From the NCBI RefSeq assembly GCF_001905385.1, contig NZ_LIPF01000008.1, positions 248,001 to 312,000 on the forward strand: DNA of 64,000 bases, written 5' to 3'. A program made the translations under genes and the position numbers. Numbering within the stretch: position 1 is the first letter of the stretch; every line of letters begins with the position of its first letter. This DNA comes from Streptomyces sp. CB02414 (GTDB taxonomy: Bacteria; Actinomycetota; Actinomycetes; Streptomycetales; Streptomycetaceae). This document shows, in pieces, positions 48,087 through 58,368 of this stretch. The notes below the pieces were generated by a model, which was not told the DNA's origin, did no database searches, and saw nothing but the letters and a program-made list of their open reading frames with translations.

Positions 48087-50234
48087 GTGAGCCGACCCCG
48101 CATCGTGATCGTCGGTGCCGGCTTCGCCGGGTACCGGACGGCCCGCACCCTGTCCCGGCTCACCCGGCACCAGGCCGACATCACCCTGCTCAACCCGACC
48201 GACTACTTCCTCTACCTGCCCCTGCTGCCACAGGTCGCCGCCGGAATCCTGGAACCGCGCCGGGTCAGCGTCTCCCTGTCCGGCACTCTGCCGCGCGTCC
48301 GGCTGGTGCTCGGCGAGGCCGACGACATCGACCTCGACGCGCGCACCGTGCACTACACCGACCCGGAGGGCGGTGGGGGCACCCTGTCCTACGACCGGCT
48401 GGTGCTCGCCGCGGGCAGCGTCAACAAGCTGCTGCCCATCCCCGGCGTGGCCGAGCACGCCCACGGCTTCCGCGGGCTGCCGGAGGCGCTGTATCTGCGC
48501 GACCACGTGACCCGGCAGGTGGAACTGGCGGCCGCGGCCGGCAACCGCGAGGAGTGCGCCGCCCGGTGCACCTTCGTCGTGGTCGGTGCGGGATACACCG
48601 GTACGGAGGTCGCCGCGCACGGCCAGATGTACACCGACGCCCAGGTGCGCAAGCATCCGATGCGCACCGGCATGCGGCCGCGCTGGATGCTGCTGGACGT
48701 GGCGGAACGGGTGCTGCCCGAGATGGACGAACGGCTCTCCCGCACCGCCGAGCGGGTGCTGCGGCAGCGGGGCGTCGACGTGCGGATGGGGACCTCCGTG
48801 AAGGAGGCCACGCACGACGGGGTTCTGCTGACCGACGGGACGACCGTGGACACCCGCACGCTGGTGTGGTGCGTGGGCGTGCGGCCCGACCCGCTGGTGG
48901 AGTCGCTGGGGCTGCCCATGGAACGCGGCCGGCTCCTCGTCGACCCGCACCTCCAGGTGCCGGGGCGGCCCGAGTTGTTCGCGTGCGGTGACGTGGCGGC
49001 CGTGCCGGACCTGAACCAGCCCGGCCAGTACACGCCGATGACCGCGCAGCACGCCTGGCGGCACGGCAAGGTCTGCGCCCAGAACGTCGCCGCGTCGCTC
49101 GGTATCGGCGGCGAGCGGCGGGCCTACCGCCACCGTGACATGGGGTTCGTGGTGGACCTGGGCGGCGCGAAGGCCGCCGCCAACCCGCTGGGGGTGCCGA
49201 TGTCCGGCCCGGCGGCGGGCGCGGTCACGCGGGGCTACCACCTCGCGGCGATGCCGGGCAACCGGGTGCGGGTGGCCGCGGACTGGCTGCTCGACGCGGT
49301 GCTGCCCCGGCAGGCGGTCCAGCTGGGCCTCGTGCGCTCCTGGTCCGTGCCCCTGGAGTCGGCGTCGCCGGAGGTGGCGCGGGTACCGGGGCGGCCGGAC
49401 GGCGAACCCGCCGGGACCCGGGCGGGCGAAGACCCGACCGTGCGGCGGTCCGAAACCGGCGCCGCGAAGGACGGGCCGGGTGGCGAGCCTGCGAAGGGGC
49501 AGCCGGGCGGTGAGCCTGCCAGGGCGCAGCCGGGTGGCGAGCCCGCGAAGAATCAGCCGGGTGGGGAACCTGCGAAGAACCAGCCGGGCGGTGAGCCGGC
49601 GAAGGCGCAGCCCGGTGGTGAGGCCGCAAAGGACCGGCCGGGTGGGAAGTCCGCGCAGGGACAGCCCGGTGGTGAGTCGGCCAAGGCGCAGCCGGGTGGT
49701 GAGCCTGCGAAGAATCAGCCGGGTGGTGAGCCTGCGAAGGGGCAGCCGGGCGGTGAGCCTGCGAAGGCGCAGCCCGGTGGTGAGTCGGCCAAGGCGCAGC
49801 CGGGTGGTGAGCCTGCGAAGAATCAGCCGGGTGGTGAGCCTGCCAAGAACCAGCCCGGTGGTGAGCCTGCGAAGAATCAGACCGGTGGGGAGACCGCGCC
49901 CAGGGCCCGCCCCGGTGGGGAGCCCGGGGAGCCCGCCGGGTCCCGTCCGGCCGCCCGCGCGCCCGGCGAGCCGCGGAAGGCGTCCAAGCCGTCCACCGCC
50001 CCCAAGCCCTCCGCCGTGGCCGAGCAGGCCGAGCGGGCCAAGCGGGCCAAGTCCTCCAGGGCTCCCGGCGCCACCCGGTCGCGGTCCCCCGGCACTCCCG
50101 CGCCGAGCCGTTCCGCTCGCCCGCCCGCCGACCCCGGACCCGAACCCCCGGCGAACCAGCCGCCCCCCGGACCCGACATCGCCCCCGGCCCCGTCAAGCG
50201 AACCGACGGCCGCGCCGCGGAAGGAGACTCATGA
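48087..50234 (+). CDS. NDH-2-type NAD(P)H dehydrogenase with long repeat tail
   Basis: Membrane-associated flavoprotein that passes electrons from NADH to quinone without proton pumping. Residues 1-~430 form the enzyme: FAD site VIVGAGFAGYRTARTL, NADH site FVVVGAGYTGTEVAAHG, and ELFACGDVAAVPD with the second FAD contact. Residues ~434-715 are low complexity: 15 consecutive nonapeptides of the type PGGEPAKNQ (464-598), then Pro/Lys/Arg/Ser-rich sequence. Typical NDH-2 proteins have about 400-460 residues, so the tail is extra. GTG 48087 has GGAGG six bases upstream. The stop overlaps transketolase by ATGA. Confidence 0.9.
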   Translation: MSRPRIVIVGAGFAGYRTARTLSRLTRHQADITLLNPTDYFLYLPLLPQVAAGILEPRRVSVSLSGTLPRVRLVLGEADDIDLDARTVHYTDPEGGGGTLSYDRLVLAAGSVNKLLPIPGVAEHAHGFRGLPEALYLRDHVTRQVELAAAAGNREECAARCTFVVVGAGYTGTEVAAHGQMYTDAQVRKHPMRTGMRPRWMLLDVAERVLPEMDERLSRTAERVLRQRGVDVRMGTSVKEATHDGVLLTDGTTVDTRTLVWCVGVRPDPLVESLGLPMERGRLLVDPHLQVPGRPELFACGDVAAVPDLNQPGQYTPMTAQHAWRHGKVCAQNVAASLGIGGERRAYRHRDMGFVVDLGGAKAAANPLGVPMSGPAAGAVTRGYHLAAMPGNRVRVAADWLLDAVLPRQAVQLGLVRSWSVPLESASPEVARVPGRPDGEPAGTRAGEDPTVRRSETGAAKDGPGGEPAKGQPGGEPARAQPGGEPAKNQPGGEPAKNQPGGEPAKAQPGGEAAKDRPGGKSAQGQPGGESAKAQPGGEPAKNQPGGEPAKGQPGGEPAKAQPGGESAKAQPGGEPAKNQPGGEPAKNQPGGEPAKNQTGGETAPRARPGGEPGEPAGSRPAARAPGEPRKASKPSTAPKPSAVAEQAERAKRAKSSRAPGATRSRSPGTPAPSRSARPPADPGPEPPANQPPPGPDIAPGPVKRTDGRAAEGDS
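49476..49880 (+). repeat. 15 x 27-bp in-frame tandem repeat in the NDH-2 gene
   Basis: Fifteen 27-base units encode PGGE(P/S/A)A(K/R/Q)xx, with xx most often NQ, AQ or GQ. Units 9-15 are nearly identical, units 6 and 7 the most diverged. Unit 16 (TGGETAPRA) begins decay. Length changes in multiples of nine residues would keep the frame. A short unit without spacers rules out CRISPR. Confidence 0.95.
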
Positions 50235-52078: not shown

Positions 52079-53004
52079 GCCGTGACGCCGTACGGACCGT
52101 CCGGGCCGGCCGGCGCACGGTGGAGGTGCACCGGCCGGACAAGGTGCTGTTCCCGAAGGGGGAGAGCGGCACCGACGCGTACACCAAGGCCGACCTCGTC
52201 GACTACTACCACTCCGTCGCCCCCTTCATGCTGCCGCACCTGCGGGGCCGTCCGCTGATGCTGGAGCGGCACCCGGACGGTGTGGACGGCCCCCGCTTCA
52301 TGCAGAAGAACACCCCGGAGCACTACCCGGACTGGATCGGCCGCGTGGAGGTGGGCAAGGAGGGCGGCACCGTCTGCCACACCGTCTGCGACGACACCGC
52401 CACCCTCCTCTACCTCGCCGACCAGGCCGCCCTCACCCTGCACCGCTGGCTGTCCCGGGCCGGGGACGTGGACCGGCCGGACCGTATGGTCTTCGACCTC
52501 GACCCGGCCGGCGACGACTTCCCGGCGGTCCGGGAGGCGGCCGGGCTGCTGGGCGAACTGCTCGACGAGCTGAAGCTGCCCTCGGCACTGATGACCACCG
52601 GATCCCGGGGGCTTCACGTGGTCGTTCCGCTGGCTGGCCGTCAGGACTTCGACGAGGTACGGGACTTTGCCCGGGACGTCGCCGACGTGCTGGCCGCCGA
52701 CCGGCCCGACCGTCTCACCACCGCCGCCCGGAAGAAGGACCGGGGCGACCGGCTCTACCTCGACATCCAGCGCAACGCCTACGCGCAGACCGCGGTCGCC
52801 CCCTTCACCGTGCGGGCCCTGCCCGGCGCCCCCGTCGCCACCCCGATCTCCTGGGACCAGTTGGACGACCCCGCGCTGCACGCCCGCCGCTGGACGATCG
52901 CCGACGCCGCCGACCAGGCACGCACCCGGCCCTGGGCCTCGATCGCCGGCCGCGCCCGGGATCTGGGTCCCGCCCGGCGGCGGCTGGACGCCCTGCGCGG
53001 CTGA
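52075..53004 (+). CDS. LigD-type DNA polymerase/primase (NHEJ polymerase)
   Basis: Stand-alone polymerase domain of the bacterial non-homologous end-joining system, which fills gaps with ribonucleotides before ligation by LigD/Ku partners. 309 residues: VHRPDKVLFPKGESGTDAYT, LVDYYHSVAPFMLPHLRGRP, catalytic acidic pair in VFDLDPAGDDFPAV, TTGSRGLHVVVPL, and DRLYLDIQRNAYAQTAVAPF (parts). No ligase or nuclease domain is fused, as is usual in Streptomyces where these are separate. GTG overlaps the transketolase stop. Ku and ligase genes are not in the window. Confidence 0.93.
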   Translation: MSRDAVRTVRAGRRTVEVHRPDKVLFPKGESGTDAYTKADLVDYYHSVAPFMLPHLRGRPLMLERHPDGVDGPRFMQKNTPEHYPDWIGRVEVGKEGGTVCHTVCDDTATLLYLADQAALTLHRWLSRAGDVDRPDRMVFDLDPAGDDFPAVREAAGLLGELLDELKLPSALMTTGSRGLHVVVPLAGRQDFDEVRDFARDVADVLAADRPDRLTTAARKKDRGDRLYLDIQRNAYAQTAVAPFTVRALPGAPVATPISWDQLDDPALHARRWTIADAADQARTRPWASIAGRARDLGPARRRLDALRG

Positions 53005-53105
53005 GCCCGGTCGCGGGCGGAGCGCGGGGGACGGGGGCGGGCACATGCGTGCGCCGGTACAGGTTTGGCGAACACTCTTGCGGCCACACGGAGGGGGAGG
53101 TGGCC

Positions 53106-53525
53106 ATGTCGAACACGAACAACACGTCCGAATCGCAAGGCTCACAGCGGAGTTCACAGAGCCCACAGAGCTCACGCAAATCACAAAAGCCACAGAAGTC
53201 ACATGACTCACAAGACTCGCAGGAGTCGCATGAGTCACACGAGTCACATGAGTCGCGTCGGCCCCGGCCGATGGAGGTGCTGCGTGAGGCACGCGCCCAA
53301 CTCGCGGAACTCACCGGCATGACCGCGGAGACCGTGTCGTCCTTCGAGCGTACGGAGGAAGGCTGGTCGCTGGAGGTCGAGGTGCTCGAGCTCGAGCGCG
53401 TGCCCGACACGATGAGCCTGATGGGGAGCTATCAGGTGGAGCTCGACTCCGAGGGGCAGCTCACGGGCTACCGCCGCGTCCGGCGTTACGAACGCGGCCG
53501 GGCCGACTCGCGCGGCGGCCGTTAG
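53106..53525 (+). CDS. gvpO: Gas vesicle protein GvpO with Ser/Gln/His-rich N-terminal extension
   Basis: First gene of the gas-vesicle operon. The conserved GvpO domain (~56-139; MEVLREARAQLAELTGMTAE, WSLEVEVLELERVPDTMSLM, YQVELDSEGQLTGYRRV) is an accessory factor for vesicle assembly. Residues 1-55 are low complexity (SQ, SH and ES repeats), coded by visibly AT-richer repetitive DNA. ATG 53106 has GGAGGGGGAGG upstream; the internal Met56 at 53271 is a possible shorter start. In halophilic archaea GvpO is required for vesicle formation; in Streptomyces its role is inferred. Confidence 0.92.
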   Translation: MSNTNNTSESQGSQRSSQSPQSSRKSQKPQKSHDSQDSQESHESHESHESRRPRPMEVLREARAQLAELTGMTAETVSSFERTEEGWSLEVEVLELERVPDTMSLMGSYQVELDSEGQLTGYRRVRRYERGRADSRGGR

Positions 53526-53577
53526 GCCGGACCGCACCCGCACCCACACCCACAGACAAGATGGAGGAACAGCTGGC

Positions 53578-54015
53578 ATGACTGTCGTACCGGCACAACA
53601 GACCGGCGGCGGAGGCGGCAGCAGCGGCCTTTACGACGTGCTTGAGCTTGTTCTGGACAGGGGGCTCGTCATCGACGCATTCGTGCGCGTCTCCCTGGTC
53701 GGCATCGAGATCCTGAAGATCGACGTCCGCGTCGTCGTCGCCAGCGTCGACACGTATCTGCGCTTCGCCGAGGCATGCAACCGGCTCGACCTGGAGGCCG
53801 GGCCCCGCAAGGACCCGGGGCTGCCCGACCTGGTCGGGGAGATGACCGAGTCCGGCGCCCGCGGCAAGTCCAAGGGGGCGCTGTCCGGCGCCGCCGAGAC
53901 CATCTCCGACGCGTTCAAGCAGGCCCGTGACGAGGGCGGCTCCGAACGCGAGACGGCGTCCCGTCCGCGCGCCCGCAAGGCCGCGCCCTCGCGCCGGAAG
54001 GAGGAGCAGGAGTGA
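53578..54015 (+). CDS. gvpA: Gas vesicle structural protein GvpA (C-terminally extended)
   Basis: Main shell protein family. The GvpA core spans ~17-75: SGLYDVLELVLDRGLVIDAF, VRVSLVGIEILKIDVRVVVA, SVDTYLRFAEACNRLDLE (parts), with the helix-strand-strand-helix pattern. The 145-residue length is about twice that of cyanobacterial GvpA; residues ~78-145 form a Lys/Arg/Glu-rich tail. The gvpO-gvpA order fits the Streptomyces cluster gvpOAFGYZJLSK known from memory. ATG 53578, stop overlapping gvpF by GTGA. Confidence 0.93.
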   Translation: MTVVPAQQTGGGGGSSGLYDVLELVLDRGLVIDAFVRVSLVGIEILKIDVRVVVASVDTYLRFAEACNRLDLEAGPRKDPGLPDLVGEMTESGARGKSKGALSGAAETISDAFKQARDEGGSERETASRPRARKAAPSRRKEEQE

Positions 54016-54785
54016 GTACGTACGTCTACGGCATCACCGCCGGCTCGCACGCCTCGCCGCCCGAGGAGCTGACCGGCGTCGGTGACCCGCCGTGCCGGGT
54101 GCGCGTCCTGAAGGCGGGCGAGCTGACGGCCGTGGTCAGCGACGCGCCCGAGGGGCTGCGTCCCAAGCGCCGGGAACTACTCGCCCACCAGAACGTGCTC
54201 AGCGAGGTGGGTGCGGCCGGCTGCGTGCTGCCCATGCGCTTCGGCAGCGTCGCCCCGGACGACGACGCGGTCACCGCCGTGCTCGCCGAGCGCGCGGAGC
54301 ACTACCGGGAACGCCTCGGTGCGTTGGACGGCCGGGTCGAGTACAACATCAAGGCCAACCACGTGGAGGAGGCCGTCCTGCACCACGTGATGGCCGAGAA
54401 CCCGGAGGTCCGCGCCCTCGCCGAGTCCAACCGGCAGCAGGGCGGCGGAAGTTACGAGAACAAGATCCAGCTCGGCGAGATGGTCGCGGCCGCGGTGAAG
54501 GGCAAGGAGGCGCAGGACGCCACGGCGCTGGAGCGCGCCCTGGAGCCCGCCGCCGACGCCGTGAGCACGGGCCCCGAGTCCACCGGCTGGCTGGCCAACG
54601 TGTCGTTCCTGGTGAACCGGGAGTCGGCCGAGGAGTTCCTGGCCGCCGTGGAGCGGGCCCGCGGGGACATGCCGCACCTGGAGGTGCGGGTGAACGGCCC
54701 GCTGCCGCCGTACAGCTTCGTCGAGCCCGGCCCCGCCGAGCCCGCGGGCACCGCGGCCGGCGGAATGGACGTCGGAACGGAGTGA
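54012..54785 (+). CDS. gvpF: Gas vesicle protein GvpF/GvpL family (GvpF)
   Basis: 257-residue assembly protein: STYVYGITAGSHASPPEEL, LTAVVSDAPEGLRPKRREL, HQNVLSEVGAAGCVLPMRFG and VEYNIKANHVEEAVLHHVM, ending with WLANVSFLVNRESAEEFLAA and PPYSFVEPG (parts). GvpF binds GvpA and is thought to keep it from aggregating or to nucleate vesicles. GTG start overlaps gvpA. A second family member, gvpL, is six genes downstream (57120). Confidence 0.92.
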   Translation: MSTYVYGITAGSHASPPEELTGVGDPPCRVRVLKAGELTAVVSDAPEGLRPKRRELLAHQNVLSEVGAAGCVLPMRFGSVAPDDDAVTAVLAERAEHYRERLGALDGRVEYNIKANHVEEAVLHHVMAENPEVRALAESNRQQGGGSYENKIQLGEMVAAAVKGKEAQDATALERALEPAADAVSTGPESTGWLANVSFLVNRESAEEFLAAVERARGDMPHLEVRVNGPLPPYSFVEPGPAEPAGTAAGGMDVGTE

Positions 54786-54789
54786 GGAC

Positions 54790-55053
54790 GTGGGACTGAT
54801 CTCGGAGGTCCTGCTGCTGCCGTTCGCCCCGGTGCGCGGCAGCGCCTGGGCCATCAGACAGGTGCTGAACGAGGCCGAGCGGATCTACTACGACCCCGCC
54901 ACGGTCCGAGCCGAACTGGCCCGCCTGGAAGAGCAGCTGGAGGCCGGTGAGATCACGGAGGAGGAGTTCGACCGACAGGAGGACGGGCTTCTGGACCGGC
55001 TGGAGATCGCTTCGCGCACGAGCGCGGGATTGGGCAACGGGACGGCACCATGA
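54790..55053 (+). CDS. gvpG: Gas vesicle protein GvpG
   Basis: 87 residues of the GvpG family: GLISEVLLLPFAPVRGSAWA at the N terminus, then a helix with ARLEEQLEAGEITEEEFDRQ and EDGLLDRLEIA. A small accessory protein needed for vesicle formation in other organisms. GTG 54790 follows gvpF by 4 bases; the stop overlaps gvpY (ATGA). Confidence 0.92.
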   Translation: MGLISEVLLLPFAPVRGSAWAIRQVLNEAERIYYDPATVRAELARLEEQLEAGEITEEEFDRQEDGLLDRLEIASRTSAGLGNGTAP

Positions 55054-55667
55054 ACCGAGTCGGACTGGGCCTCGCAGTAGGGGCCGGATATCTGCTGGGA
55101 CGCACGAAGAAGCTGAAACTCGCGGTCGCCGTGGGCACCATGGTGGCCGGCAAGAAGCTGAACCTGACTCCGAAGGGCATCGCGGAGCTGGTCAACTCGC
55201 AGCTCCAGAACAACCCCCAGTTCAAGGAGATCGGGGACCAGCTGCGCACCGATATGCAGGGCGTCGGCAAGGCGGCCTCCGGGGCGCTGGTCGAGCGGCA
55301 GATGGACGCGCTCGCCGACCGTCTGCACGGGCGCACGGCACAGGTCCGCGACCAGCTCTCGGGCGTGGCGTCGACGGTACCGGGTGCCGGCTCCGACGAC
55401 TCCTCCCGCGACTCCGAGGCCTCGGAGGACTCGGAGCCGTACGAGGAGGCCGACGAGCATGGGGAGCCCGGGGAGCGGAGCGAGCGAGCCCCGAAGAAGG
55501 CCCCGCCCCAGGCGCGCAAGGCGGCCAAGAAGGCGCCCGCCAAGAAGGCGGCGGCGAAGCGGGCCCAGCCCGCCCGGAAGGCGGCCGGCAAGAAGACCGC
55601 CGGAGCCAGGAGCGCCGCGCGCGGCGCCACCGGGAACCGACAGTCGAAGGGCGGTGGTGAGCGATGA
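55050..55667 (+). CDS. gvpY: GvpY: gas-vesicle-cluster protein with Lys/Ala-rich tail
   Basis: 205 residues. The N-terminal part (VGLGLAVGAGYLLGRTKKLK, VGTMVAGKKLNLTPKGIAEL) contains a glycine-rich hydrophobic segment and a helical region with NNPQFKEIGDQLRTDMQGVG. After an acidic linker (~120-150), residues ~155-205 are histone-H1-like: repeated KKAP, AKKAA and ARKAAGKK. The name follows the Streptomyces cluster order. Function is unknown. The basic tail could interact with the acidic tail of GvpZ coded by the next gene. ATG and TGA overlap both neighbours by 4 bases. Confidence 0.85.
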   Translation: MNRVGLGLAVGAGYLLGRTKKLKLAVAVGTMVAGKKLNLTPKGIAELVNSQLQNNPQFKEIGDQLRTDMQGVGKAASGALVERQMDALADRLHGRTAQVRDQLSGVASTVPGAGSDDSSRDSEASEDSEPYEEADEHGEPGERSERAPKKAPPQARKAAKKAPAKKAAAKRAQPARKAAGKKTAGARSAARGATGNRQSKGGGER

Positions 55668-56800
55668 CCGACACCCTCGGTTCCGCGGCCTCCACGGCGG
55701 GCAAGGCCGCGAAGAAGAACCCGCTCACCGACGTGGCGCAGAGCGAGGCGGCCGACCGCCTCAAGGCGGAGGTGCAGGACTACCTGGCCGCCCAGGTCAC
55801 GCGGCTGCTGACCGGCGTCGGCACCAAACTCGGCGAGACCACCGGCAAGCTGAACGACATCGCCGAGGGCAACAGCCCCGGTTTCGCCAAGCTGGCCCTC
55901 GACGGCGGACGCAAGCTCGCCGAGGGCAAGAGCCCGGTGCGGGCCGCGTTCGAGGTCGGAGCCGGCAAGGTCAAGGACAACGTGGTCGGCGCCTTCAAGA
56001 ACCTCGGGGGCGGCAAGAGCGGGAAGAAGGGCGGCGGCGGTCAGAAGCCGACGGTCATCATCGAGTACGTCGATGTCGGCGTGCCGCTGCGCACGGCCTA
56101 CGACCAGTGGACCCAGTACCAGGACTTCAGCACCTTCGCCAAGGGCGTCAAGAGCGCGAACCGGGCCGACGACACGTCGTCCGACTGGCAGCTGAAGGTC
56201 TTCTGGTCCAACCGCAGCTGGAAGGCGAAGACGACCGAGCAGGTCCCCGACGACCGGATCTCCTGGACGTCGGAGGGCGCCAAGGGCACCACCAAGGGCG
56301 TGGTCAGCTTCCACAAGCTCGCCGACAGCCTCACCCGCGTGGTCCTGGTCATCGAGTACTACCCCAAGGGCCTCTTCGAGAAGACCGGCAACATCTGGCG
56401 CGCCCAGGGACGCCGGGCCCGTCTCGACCTCAAGAACTACGTCCGGCACATCACCCTCAAGGGCGAGGCCGACGACGGCTGGCGCGGCGAGATCCGCGAC
56501 GGCGAGGTCGTCCGCAGCCACGAGGACGCCCTCGCCGAGGAACAGGAAGGACAGGAGGAACAGGAAGGACAGGAGGAACAGGAGGGACAGGAGGGACAGG
56601 AGGAGCACGAGCCCTCCGAGGCGGAGGAAGAGACCGAGCCTGAGGGCGAGTACGAAGACGAGTACGAGGAGGAGCCCGAGGGCGAGTACGAGGAGGAGGA
56701 CAAGGAAGCCGGGGAGGACGAGTACGCGTCCCGTGGCGAGTACGACGAGTACGACGAGTACGAGGAGCCCGAGGACGCCGACCGCGGGAGCCGTCGATGA
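55664..56800 (+). CDS. gvpZ: GvpZ: SRPBCC-domain gas-vesicle-cluster protein with acidic tail
   Basis: 378 residues. A helical lead (1-~120) precedes a polyketide-cyclase/START-like (SRPBCC) domain at ~128-265: VIIEYVDVGVPLRTAYDQWT, FSTFAKGVKSANRADDTSSD, ISWTSEGAKGTTKGVVSFHK and VLVIEYYPKGLFEKTGNIWR (parts). Residues ~290-378 are strongly acidic: repeated EEQEGQ units followed by EYE/EDE/YDEYDEYE sequence. Role in vesicles is unknown; the SRPBCC fold suggests binding of a hydrophobic ligand or of GvpA. Overlaps gvpY and gvpJ by 4 bases each. Confidence 0.87.
   Translation: MTDTLGSAASTAGKAAKKNPLTDVAQSEAADRLKAEVQDYLAAQVTRLLTGVGTKLGETTGKLNDIAEGNSPGFAKLALDGGRKLAEGKSPVRAAFEVGAGKVKDNVVGAFKNLGGGKSGKKGGGGQKPTVIIEYVDVGVPLRTAYDQWTQYQDFSTFAKGVKSANRADDTSSDWQLKVFWSNRSWKAKTTEQVPDDRISWTSEGAKGTTKGVVSFHKLADSLTRVVLVIEYYPKGLFEKTGNIWRAQGRRARLDLKNYVRHITLKGEADDGWRGEIRDGEVVRSHEDALAEEQEGQEEQEGQEEQEGQEGQEEHEPSEAEEETEPEGEYEDEYEEEPEGEYEEEDKEAGEDEYASRGEYDEYDEYEEPEDADRGSRR
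56537..56603 (+). repeat. Short in-frame repeat coding the GvpZ acidic tail
   Basis: Three and a half near-identical 18-base units (GAGGAACAGGAAGGACAG type) encode EEQEGQ repeats, then two shorter GAGGGACAG units. Almost pure purine on the plus strand. Likely prone to length change by slippage. Confidence 0.85.
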
Positions 56801-57123
56801 CCACCCCCAGCCGGTTGCCCGATCCCTACGGCCAGGGACAGAGCGCCAACCTCGCCGACATCCTGGAGCGGGTGCTCGACAAGGGAGTCGTGATCGCGGG
56901 CGACATCAAGATCAACCTGCTCGACATAGAGCTGCTCACCATCAAGCTGCGGCTCGTCGTCGCCTCCGTGGACAAGGCCAAGGAGATGGGCATCGACTGG
57001 TGGGAGAGCGACCCCGCGCTCTCCTCTCGCGCCCGGCACGACGAGCTGACCCGGGAGAACGCCGCGCTGCGCGAACGCCTGCGCGAGCTGGACCCGGGCC
57101 GGGTACCGAGGGAGGCACCGTGA
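56797..57123 (+). CDS. gvpJ: Gas vesicle minor structural protein GvpJ
   Basis: 108-residue GvpA-fold protein: NLADILERVLDKGVVIAGDI, KINLLDIELLTIKLRLVVAS, VDKAKEMGIDWWESDP (parts), then a helical tail DELTRENAALRERLREL. GvpJ usually sits at the cone tips or helps start the shell. ATGA overlap with gvpZ and GTGA overlap with gvpL. Confidence 0.92.
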   Translation: MTTPSRLPDPYGQGQSANLADILERVLDKGVVIAGDIKINLLDIELLTIKLRLVVASVDKAKEMGIDWWESDPALSSRARHDELTRENAALRERLRELDPGRVPREAP

Positions 57124-57899
57124 CCGGACTGCGGTACGTCTACGCCGTCTGCCGCCCCTTCGACGCGGCCCTCCAGTCCCAGCTGACCGGGGTGGCGGGC
57201 GACCCGCCCCGGCTGCTGGCCCACGGCGGGCTGGTCGCCGTCGTGAGCCATGTGCCGGAGGCCGACTTCAGCGAGGAGTCGCTGCGGACCCATTTGGAGG
57301 ATCTGGACTGGCTCGCCGCGACCGCCCGCGCCCACCAGCAGGTCATCGACGCGCTCACCGCCGTCACCACCCCGCTGCCGCTCCGGCTGGCCACCGTCTT
57401 CCGTGACGACAGCGGCGTGCGCGTGATGATGGAGGAGCGGGAAGAGACCTTCCGGCGCACGCTGGGGCGCCTGGAGGGGCGGGTGGAATGGGGCGTCAAG
57501 ATCTTCGTCGAGGCCGGCCCCGACCAGAGCGCCGAGCGGGCCGAGCCCGCCCCGAAGCCCGCCTCGGGCCGGGACTACCTGCGCCAGCGGCGCCGGCAGA
57601 CGCGGGCCAGTGAAGACCTGTGGAGCAGGGCCGAGGAGTTCGCGACCCGCCTGCACGAGTCGCTGTCCGCGCGGGCCGACGACGCACGTCTGCACGCGCC
57701 GCAGAATCCCAGCCTTTCCGGCGCCGCCGGACGGAACGTCCTCAACGCCGCCTATCTGGTGCGGCGTGAGGCGTCCGAGGAATTCGTGGAAATGGTGGAC
57801 CGCACCAAGGATGATGCTCCTGGAATTCGCGTGGAACTCACCGGTCCGTGGGCGGCCTATTCGTTCGCCGGCGAGGAAGGAACGGGGGAGGGGTCATGA
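57120..57899 (+). CDS. gvpL: Gas vesicle protein GvpL (GvpF/L family)
   Basis: 259 residues, second GvpF/L member: LRYVYAVCRPFDAALQSQLT, LVAVVSHVPEADFSEESL, HQQVIDALTAVTTPLPLRLA and VEWGVKIFVEAGPDQSAE, ending with NVLNAAYLVRREASEEFVEM and GPWAAYSFAGEE (parts). It probably coats or chaperones the growing vesicle. GTG 57120 overlaps gvpJ; the stop overlaps gvpS. Confidence 0.92.
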   Translation: MTGLRYVYAVCRPFDAALQSQLTGVAGDPPRLLAHGGLVAVVSHVPEADFSEESLRTHLEDLDWLAATARAHQQVIDALTAVTTPLPLRLATVFRDDSGVRVMMEEREETFRRTLGRLEGRVEWGVKIFVEAGPDQSAERAEPAPKPASGRDYLRQRRRQTRASEDLWSRAEEFATRLHESLSARADDARLHAPQNPSLSGAAGRNVLNAAYLVRREASEEFVEMVDRTKDDAPGIRVELTGPWAAYSFAGEEGTGEGS

Positions 57900-58078
57900 C
57901 GGTCGTCGAACGCCGTGAGATCGCCCTCGTGGACCTGCTCGACCGGCTCCTGGCCGGCGGCGTGGTCATCACCGGCGACGTCACGCTGCGCATCGCGGAC
58001 GTCGACCTGGTCCGCATCGACCTCAACGCGCTGATCAGCTCGGTCAACCGCAATGTCCCGTCGCCGTTCGGAGACTGA
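57896..58078 (+). CDS. gvpS: Gas vesicle GvpA-like small protein GvpS
   Basis: 60 residues covering only the GvpA core: EIALVDLLDRLLAGGVVITG, DVTLRIADVDLVRIDLNALI (parts). The third GvpA-fold gene of the cluster and the only one without a tail. ATG 57896 overlaps gvpL by ATGA and precedes gvpK by 5 bases. Confidence 0.9.
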   Translation: MTVVERREIALVDLLDRLLAGGVVITGDVTLRIADVDLVRIDLNALISSVNRNVPSPFGD

Positions 58079-58083
58079 TCGAC

Positions 58084-58368
58084 GTGACCGAACCCCGCAA
58101 ACGCCTCGAACTGGAGCCCGACACGGTCGAGCGCGACCTGATCAAGCTGGTGCTGACCGTCGTCGAGCTGCTGCGCCAGCTCATGGAGCGCCAGGCGCTG
58201 CGCCGCGTCGACGAGGGTGACCTGAGCGAGGACCAGGAGGAGCGGATCGGGCTCACCCTGATGCTCCTCGACGACCGCATGACCGAGCTGCGCGACCGCT
58301 ACGGACTGCGGCCCGAGGACCTGAACCTGGACCTCGGGCCGCTGGGACCGCTGCTGCCCCGGGAGTGA
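58084..58368 (+). CDS. gvpK: Gas vesicle protein GvpK
   Basis: 94 residues of the GvpK family: LELEPDTVERDLIKLVLTVV, ELLRQLMERQALRRVDEGDL, IGLTLMLLDDRMTELRDRYG (parts) and LNLDLGPLGPLL. Required for vesicle shape or assembly elsewhere. GTG 58084. Last gene of the operon; its stop codon sits in the loop of the terminator hairpin. Confidence 0.92.
   Translation: MTEPRKRLELEPDTVERDLIKLVLTVVELLRQLMERQALRRVDEGDLSEDQEERIGLTLMLLDDRMTELRDRYGLRPEDLNLDLGPLGPLLPRE

Follow-up and report, generated by a model that had tools for sequence, protein, structure and literature searches.

Gas vesicle operon of Streptomyces sp. CB02414

A 64,000-bp stretch of Streptomyces sp. CB02414 (contig NZ_LIPF01000008.1, positions 248,001 to 312,000; here "the window," with coordinates counted from its first base) contains a gas vesicle (gvp) operon at 53106-58368, organized as ten tightly packed genes, gvpO-A-F-G-Y-Z-J-L-S-K, all on the + strand, from the gvpO ATG at 53106 to the gvpK stop codon at 58368. 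Its distinguishing features are a shell protein, GvpA, in which a wall-type core under strong selection is followed by a conserved C-terminal tail, and the pairing of this tailed GvpA with no detectable GvpN. Nine of the ten proteins score above cut-off for a Pfam family (GvpY being the exception), and the combination of a PF00741 shell protein with accessory F/L, G, J, and K proteins identifies the locus as a gas vesicle cluster. The genes are as follows.

53106..53525, + strand: gvpO, 139 amino acids (aa); PF05800, 125.5 bits
53578..54015, + strand: gvpA, long-tailed shell protein, 145 aa; PF00741, 46.6 bits
54012..54785, + strand: gvpF, 257 aa; PF06386 (GvpL_GvpF), 234.1 bits
54790..55053, + strand: gvpG, 87 aa; PF05120, 98.3 bits
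55050..55667, + strand: gvpY, 205 aa; name taken from the gene position in S. coelicolor, no Pfam family above cut-off
55664..56800, + strand: gvpZ, 378 aa; PF03364 (Polyketide_cyc, SRPBCC-type), 65.5 bits; named by position
56797..57123, + strand: gvpJ, 108 aa; PF00741, 62.0 bits; groups with J, not A, in the tree
57120..57899, + strand: gvpL, 259 aa; PF06386, 231.2 bits
57896..58078, + strand: gvpS, 60 aa, no tail; PF00741, 51.1 bits; groups with S in the tree
58084..58368, + strand: gvpK, 94 aa; PF05121, 119.3 bits

The original prediction, made from the DNA alone, had placed here a gas vesicle operon with three GvpA-fold proteins of different build, and both the Pfam matches and the coordinates agree with it. 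GvpJ (108 aa) appears from its sequence to have the short helical tail foreseen for it, being helix-like from residue ∼60, and GvpS (60 aa) has none, as expected. Three builds do not in themselves signal a new structure, and the trio is rejected as an oddity: GvpA with two relatives of differing length (A/J/M, or S) is standard in studied clusters, as in haloarchaea with GvpA of 76, GvpJ of 114, and GvpM of 84 aa (PMC9501494).

The operon is an ordinary gas vesicle gene cluster of a published kind common to most Streptomyces. An identical gene content and order, O-A-F-G-Y-Z-J-L-S(-K), is listed for S. coelicolor SCO6499-6508 (cluster II of PMC5839063, Table 2; PMC2631018), which is probably gvp1 of PMC3123327. 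The match to this type rests on gene order and on GvpAs that are 97 to 99% identical in named relatives, among them S. coelicoflavus, S. tendae, and S. violaceorubidus; the last two (99%) are the closest named relatives by GvpA. Of 151 genomes sampled from the genus, 121 have PF00741 above cut-off, as do 35 of 396 from Actinomycetota. The CB02414 genome (7.99 Mb in 19 contigs) contains another complete ten-gene gvp set on contig C15 (L041, G000:C15:534000-548000), and its GvpA has a diverged tail of 106 residues in which an amphipathic helix is still present.

Gene order, judged by best tblastn hits, is kept in 78 of a set of 82 sequences made up of 80 relatives selected for a similar GvpA, the window, and the other cluster of the genome. 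In an even sample of the genus, drawn from the listed GvpJ matches, 57 loci have both A and J; all ten genes are seen in 45 of these, Z in 47, and Y in 48, within stretches of at most 8.5 kb, so a gene unseen there is not thereby shown to be absent. In some loci Y and Z lie ahead of gvpO on the opposite strand.

The GvpA core

GvpA contains a core that aligns with two solved gas vesicle walls: residues 14-72 (53617..53793, + strand) with that of Bacillus megaterium (7r1c, its residues 8-66; E value, 1.4e-17) and residues 14-70 with that of Anabaena (8gbs; E value, 7.3e-17). In the B. megaterium wall, salt bridges Arg31-Glu38 and Arg31-Glu43 brace the structure, and Val35 and Ile37 seal the seam (PMC9994262). 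Mapped through the 7r1c alignment and counted in 57 tailed GvpAs selected for diversity among 107 nonredundant rows, Arg31 corresponds to R37 (R in 56 of 57), Glu38 to E44 (E in 56 of 57), Val35 to V41 (V in 53, I in 4), and Ile37 to I43 (I in all 57). The sole change in this load-bearing and seam set is conservative, Glu43 being replaced by D49 (D in 56 of 57). The protein thus has a shell-type core, homologous to solved walls and with their load-bearing and seam residues, although at 145 aa it is far longer than the eight reference shell proteins (67 to 84 aa).

Selection on the core is strong. Rates are taken from the genus sample because the 80 named relatives, having been chosen by GvpA similarity, inflate conservation; the set comprises the window and 57 GvpAs from the even sample (60 stretches, minus two placeholders and one cut before gvpA). 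For residues 17-67, the ratio of nonsynonymous to synonymous substitution rates (dN/dS) is 0.027, with 98% mean identity, among 28 orthologues of the window type (GvpA hidden Markov model [HMM] score of at least 229 bits), and 0.069, with 91% identity, over the whole set of 58 genus GvpAs irrespective of cluster type.

A core-only tree (64 rows, 55 columns) recovers a tailed GvpA group (support, 94/76) and a short GvpA group (97/83) that join each other (95/91), with J and S separate. The tree-building tool warns of long branches toward S, and many forks stay open because there are only 55 columns. GvpA matches the NCBIfam model NF006872, "gas vesicle structural protein GvpA," with 216.7 bits (cut-off, 151) over residues 3-144, and these NCBIfam scores together with the tree reject its assignment as a GvpJ-like accessory. 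Judged by alignment and phylogeny, the core is a true shell core, grouped with shell GvpAs rather than with J or S.

The GvpA tail

Homology to the walls stops at residue 72 (7r1c) or 70 (8gbs), leaving a tail of ∼73 residues. The original prediction of a charged tail of 65 to 70 residues was right as to charge and slightly short as to length, and with 15 K/R and 14 D/E in residues 73-145 the tail is nearly neutral overall. It has a plan of NRLDL, an LPDLV motif, an amphipathic helix, and a charged end, which recurs across Actinomycetota and has diverged between cluster types. Three of its parts are located as follows.

53818..53856, + strand: tail motif GLPDLVGEMTESG, residues 81-93; dN/dS, with similar motifs in Actinomycetota
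53857..53922, + strand: tail helix ARGKSKGALSGAAETISDAFKQ, residues 94-115; dN/dS, amphipathic
53923..54012, + strand: variable charged end, residues 116-145; pairwise identity and dN/dS

All 57 GvpAs of the even genus sample have 58 to 101 residues after helix alpha2. Variants of the plan are also present in Rhodococcus, Nonomuraea, Kitasatospora, and ten phylum-sample genomes outside the genus, with NRLDL or a close relative, L.DLV or LPEL, a K[ST]..GA-type helix, and a charged end. Among the 28 orthologues, dN/dS is 0.25 for the linker, 0.40 for the LPDLV motif, 0.20 for the helix, and 0.48 for the charged end, ratios that are rough at only 13 to 30 codons per module, and the charged end has a mean pairwise identity of 0.57. 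Over all 58 genus GvpAs the values rise to 0.42, 0.68, 0.60, and 0.72, respectively, indicating that the tail is constrained inside each cluster type and divergent between types. Amphipathicity of the helix is matched by 43 of 2,000 shuffles for the window, 19 for L041, and 22 for L207, but is weak in L157, L172, and L255 (141, 224, and 236 of 2,000). AlphaFold2 places low-confidence helices in the tail at residues 82-91 and 106-118.

Helix alpha2 is published as surface-exposed on the gas vesicle wall and as the outside binding site of GvpC, so the tail that follows it would be expected to lie outside the shell. In B. megaterium, whose cluster is without GvpC, vesicles have an extra surface density that has been suggested to be the GvpA2 C terminus. 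The long form itself is already an NCBIfam subfamily: NF006872 (PRK09368) describes a 143-position GvpA and covers that of the window, with an entry silent on tail function and on the missing GvpN. We found no described actinobacterial GvpA tail in the open-licence literature; tail anatomy, the tail selection profile, and the pairing of the tail with the missing GvpN are added here.

Searches for GvpN and GvpC

A GvpN HMM built from six annotated plasmid clusters was run on 183 sequences (the window, L041-L121, and L153-L255, minus two 10-base placeholders) and matches neither the window nor the second cluster. No GvpN scores above cut-off in the genome when all 90 candidates are scored, none is found in 151 genomes of the genus at an E value of ≤1e-30 (15 candidates scored per genome), and GvpN is present in 2 of 396 Actinomycetota genomes (6 candidates scored per genome), the two positives showing that the model works. 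Strong matches among the 183 sequences are confined to the six source plasmids and to L161 and L162, which belong to these same two genomes. The positive genomes are small (1.2 and 1.6 Mb); one (G325) codes for a complete GvpA of ∼68 residues with no tail, and the GvpA of the other is cut at a contig end. The six GvpN-bearing plasmid clusters (Octadecabacter among them) all have GvpAs of 67 to 78 aa.

Outside the genus, 17 phylum-sample genomes have a match, and 10 of these combine a tailed GvpA with no GvpN hit at an E value of ≤1e-60, one of them (G262) also having another GvpA (L158) in which alpha2 is followed by just 23 residues. Of the others, G260 has a short GvpA with GvpN not found, G325 has its GvpN on a different contig from the short GvpA, G306 has the GvpA cut off at the contig end and GvpN present, G304 is below cut-off, and G348, G396, and G413 have no full GvpA in the fetched stretch. 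No GvpN was found alongside a tailed GvpA in any case examined, the search in Rhodococcus, Nonomuraea, and Kitasatospora covering the fetched stretch of each record. No GvpA-class protein is present in the G457, G083, and G126:C5 stretches, and the short-GvpA plasmid stretches of Thiodictyon and Halalkalicoccus have no GvpN within ∼7 kb. The pairing of a tailed GvpA with no GvpN thus appears clean in this material, within one phylum. It may reflect a single historical event in one ancestor, since every tailed GvpA seen belongs to a single phylum and a single tree group, whose support (94/76) is under the mark set by the tool. GvpC (PF01304) is detected in none of the 396 Actinomycetota genomes, with a control that detects Nostoc GvpC and misses Halobacterium GvpC. 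That S. coelicolor lacks gvpN and has a deviating GvpA has been published before (PMC4982088).

The genome has five weak AAA matches to GvpN, which raise the question of whether another AAA ATPase does the job of GvpN, the operon then producing ordinary gas vesicles that have so far gone unseen because the right conditions have not been met. The conserved wall core would suit such vesicles, and a review sentence counts Streptomyces among organisms that do form them (PMC9501494). However, the best of the five matches (37.4 bits) is far under the 266.8-bit cut-off, such matches occur in 12 of 14 control genomes, and gvp disruption is reported to leave buoyancy unaffected (PMC5839063), so we consider ordinary vesicles unlikely.

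The operon can be compared with other known systems. B. megaterium (GvpB/GvpA2 wall, 7r1c) shares the core alignment and GvpF, G, J, K, L, and S, and its cluster has no GvpC; it differs in having GvpN, in an 88-aa wall protein without the 73-residue tail, and, as listed, in having R, T, U and A, P, Q in place of O, Y, Z. Nostoc/Anabaena and haloarchaeal systems share the shell GvpA core, and counterparts of GvpO, F, G, J, K, and L are annotated in Halobacterium pNRC100, but their GvpAs are 71 to 76 aa, and GvpC and GvpN are present.

Upstream region and expression

Immediately upstream of gvpO is a block that is conserved while the bases preceding it vary.

53061..53105, + strand: conserved block 5' of gvpO containing GTTTGGCGAAC; candidate promoter, operator, or ribosome-binding region

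GTTTGGCGAAC is an imperfect palindrome and is followed by a GA-rich stretch; GGTTTGGCG or TTTGGCGA is present in 29 of 69 upstream stretches. The SigB consensus is GNNTN14-16GGGTAY. It has no match at this block or in the 900 bp 5' of the gvpA core in either the window or the second cluster, and the closest + strand match is far upstream, at 49362. Over the sample it is found in 5 of 164 upstream stretches, which is not above background (5% of random 900-base stretches). One paper handles SCO6496-6508 as a single SigB-regulated operon, so the promoter may sit further upstream. In the window, a LigD primase-polymerase-domain gene (52183-53004) ends ∼100 bp 5' of gvpO, and a LigD polymerase-domain gene precedes the cluster on the same strand in 73 of the 82 sequences.

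The S. coelicolor cluster is reported to be induced by salt via SigB, by cell-envelope and cell-wall antibiotics, and by pelleted growth (PMC6629963 among other sources), and to respond to loss of argR (PMC5839063). These data contradict the silence under all conditions that the original prediction had named as a refutation. They would also suit a role for GvpA and its partners as soluble or membrane-bound stress proteins that form no particle, the response to acid shock being mixed; wall-type conservation of the core stands against this, and we regard it as very unlikely. A decaying, unexpressed relic would agree with the lack of a buoyancy phenotype on disruption and with low expression in a control strain (PMC5839063), but it is rejected by dN/dS: purifying selection is seen, all ten genes are present in 45 of 57 sampled loci, and GvpG of S. 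coelicolor is visible on two-dimensional gels (PMC2631018), leaving the relic next to no credence.

Other proteins and distribution

Charged tails are not confined to GvpA. GvpY has a hydrophobic Gly-rich N terminus and a Lys/Ala-rich, basic, histone-like tail, its last 55 aa having a net charge of +16 in the window and at least +5 in 77 of 78 sequences; a probable Kitasatospora counterpart is annotated "histone protein." GvpZ combines a polyketide-cyclase/SRPBCC-type domain with an acidic tail, the last 85 aa having a net charge of −39 in the window and −15 or lower in all 76 sequences. GvpY and GvpZ may bind one another or nucleic acid. The N-terminal ∼50 aa of GvpO are Ser/Gln/His-rich and variable, forming the least conserved part of GvpO among relatives, and the 5' end of gvpO (53106-53255) codes for Ser/His/Gln/Glu repeats (SHESHESHES) from a near-tandem DNA repeat.

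Plasmids of Streptomyces, Kitasatospora, and Rhodococcus (records H1-H10) code for GvpA relatives matched beyond residue 108, and hence including the tail, some of them annotated gvpJ; the gvp cluster may move between replicons. A phage link is rejected, with zero matches among 50,697 phage records. One genome of the genus (G091) has 12 PF00741 matches. Some small-genome Actinomycetota (L159, L163, L164, and L166) code for proteins of 367 to 369 aa in which a GvpA-fold N terminus is fused to ∼300 residues with a zinc-ribbon-like C..C...C..C end, and L160 and L163 have shorter GvpA-fold proteins (117 to 119 aa) with a similar ending; a zinc-ribbon protein of L155 that scored as GvpA (36 bits) was left out of the comparisons.

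Proposed product of the operon

Small ribbed shells are the simplest prediction from a competent wall core and no GvpN. We tentatively lean toward a reading in which GvpA would polymerize into a ribbed wall like that of known gas vesicles, nucleated and chaperoned by GvpF, L, J, S, K, G, and O, with the C-terminal tail leaving helix alpha2 on the outer face as a built-in coat of amphipathic helix and charged brush. Without GvpN the shells would halt while still small and bicone-like and would not reach the form of long, buoyant cylinders, as GvpN loss in other systems is reported to give bicones or tiny vesicles, and they would presumably be gas filled and produced under SigB-type osmotic and envelope stress. 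A non-buoyancy role for Streptomyces gvp genes was already proposed in 2005 (van Keulen; via PMC4982088, PMC5839063, and PMC6629963). The original prediction had suggested that the product may be other than a classical buoyancy vesicle, and here the evidence divides: the missing GvpN, the conserved tail on the shell subunit, and, weakly, the lack of vesicles in Escherichia coli agree with it, whereas the retained wall residues and the grouping of the core with shell GvpAs do not.

Several observations weigh against small tail-coated shells. The AlphaFold2 monomer of GvpA is of low confidence (predicted local distance difference test score, 62; predicted template modeling score, 0.25) and renders the core helical, in disagreement with the solved walls. 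Tail modules evolve fast genus-wide (dN/dS, 0.42 to 0.72), and no similarity between the tail and GvpC repeats is detectable (hhalign probability, 0.2% for either of two GvpCs), so identification of the tail as such a repeat is rejected. In an E. coli screen of 15 clusters, vesicles were obtained from 5, S. coelicolor not among them; the authors blame most failures on heterologous expression, and with the majority of clusters failing in that screen the S. coelicolor result carries little weight. A hybrid E. coli screen of 30 combinations gave vesicles by transmission electron microscopy for two, neither with S. coelicolor genes. We found no micrograph of such bodies in Streptomyces in the open-licence literature, an S. 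albus cryo-tomography paper does not mention gas vesicles, and the review statement noted above points instead to ordinary ones. As for expression, both clusters are low and constant in an S. coelicolor control strain (PMC5839063), and acid shock lowers gvpA and gvpF of this cluster while other gvp genes rise (PMC2631018). Finally, one B. megaterium test found no vesicles at all by electron microscopy after GvpN loss, so assembly could stop before any shell, and as none of the B. megaterium GvpA2 fusions gave intact vesicles, a classical wall might be harder to build when each subunit bears a tail.

These last results also fit the main rival, in which GvpA forms a water-filled or solid assembly (ribs, filaments, or aggregates) coated with tails and acting as a stress, scaffold, or storage body without a gas space. 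The failure to find GvpN, the absence of E. coli vesicles, the charged tails that GvpY and GvpZ carry too, and the nitrogen storage role proposed in the ArgR paper (PMC5839063) are consistent with it. Such a body would hardly need the kept seam and salt-bridge residues or the retained accessory proteins GvpF, G, J, K, L, and S, nor does it sit well with a core dN/dS of 0.027, and we judge it rather unlikely. A bolder extension of the small-shell reading, which we consider improbable, is a second class of GvpA organelle in Actinomycetota, whose shell protein would come with an outer strap and a growth regulator of its own; the tail would replace GvpC, GvpN would be unneeded or deliberately absent, and hyphae under osmotic or envelope stress would contain small, strong, tail-coated shells.

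What actinomycete gvp clusters do is a puzzle dating back to 2005 or earlier, and the sequence data now constrain it through a wall-competent core under strong selection, a conserved tail helix, and the missing growth ATPase, from which a small shape is predicted. Should the tail prove to reinforce or cap the shell, engineered gas vesicles would gain a handle.

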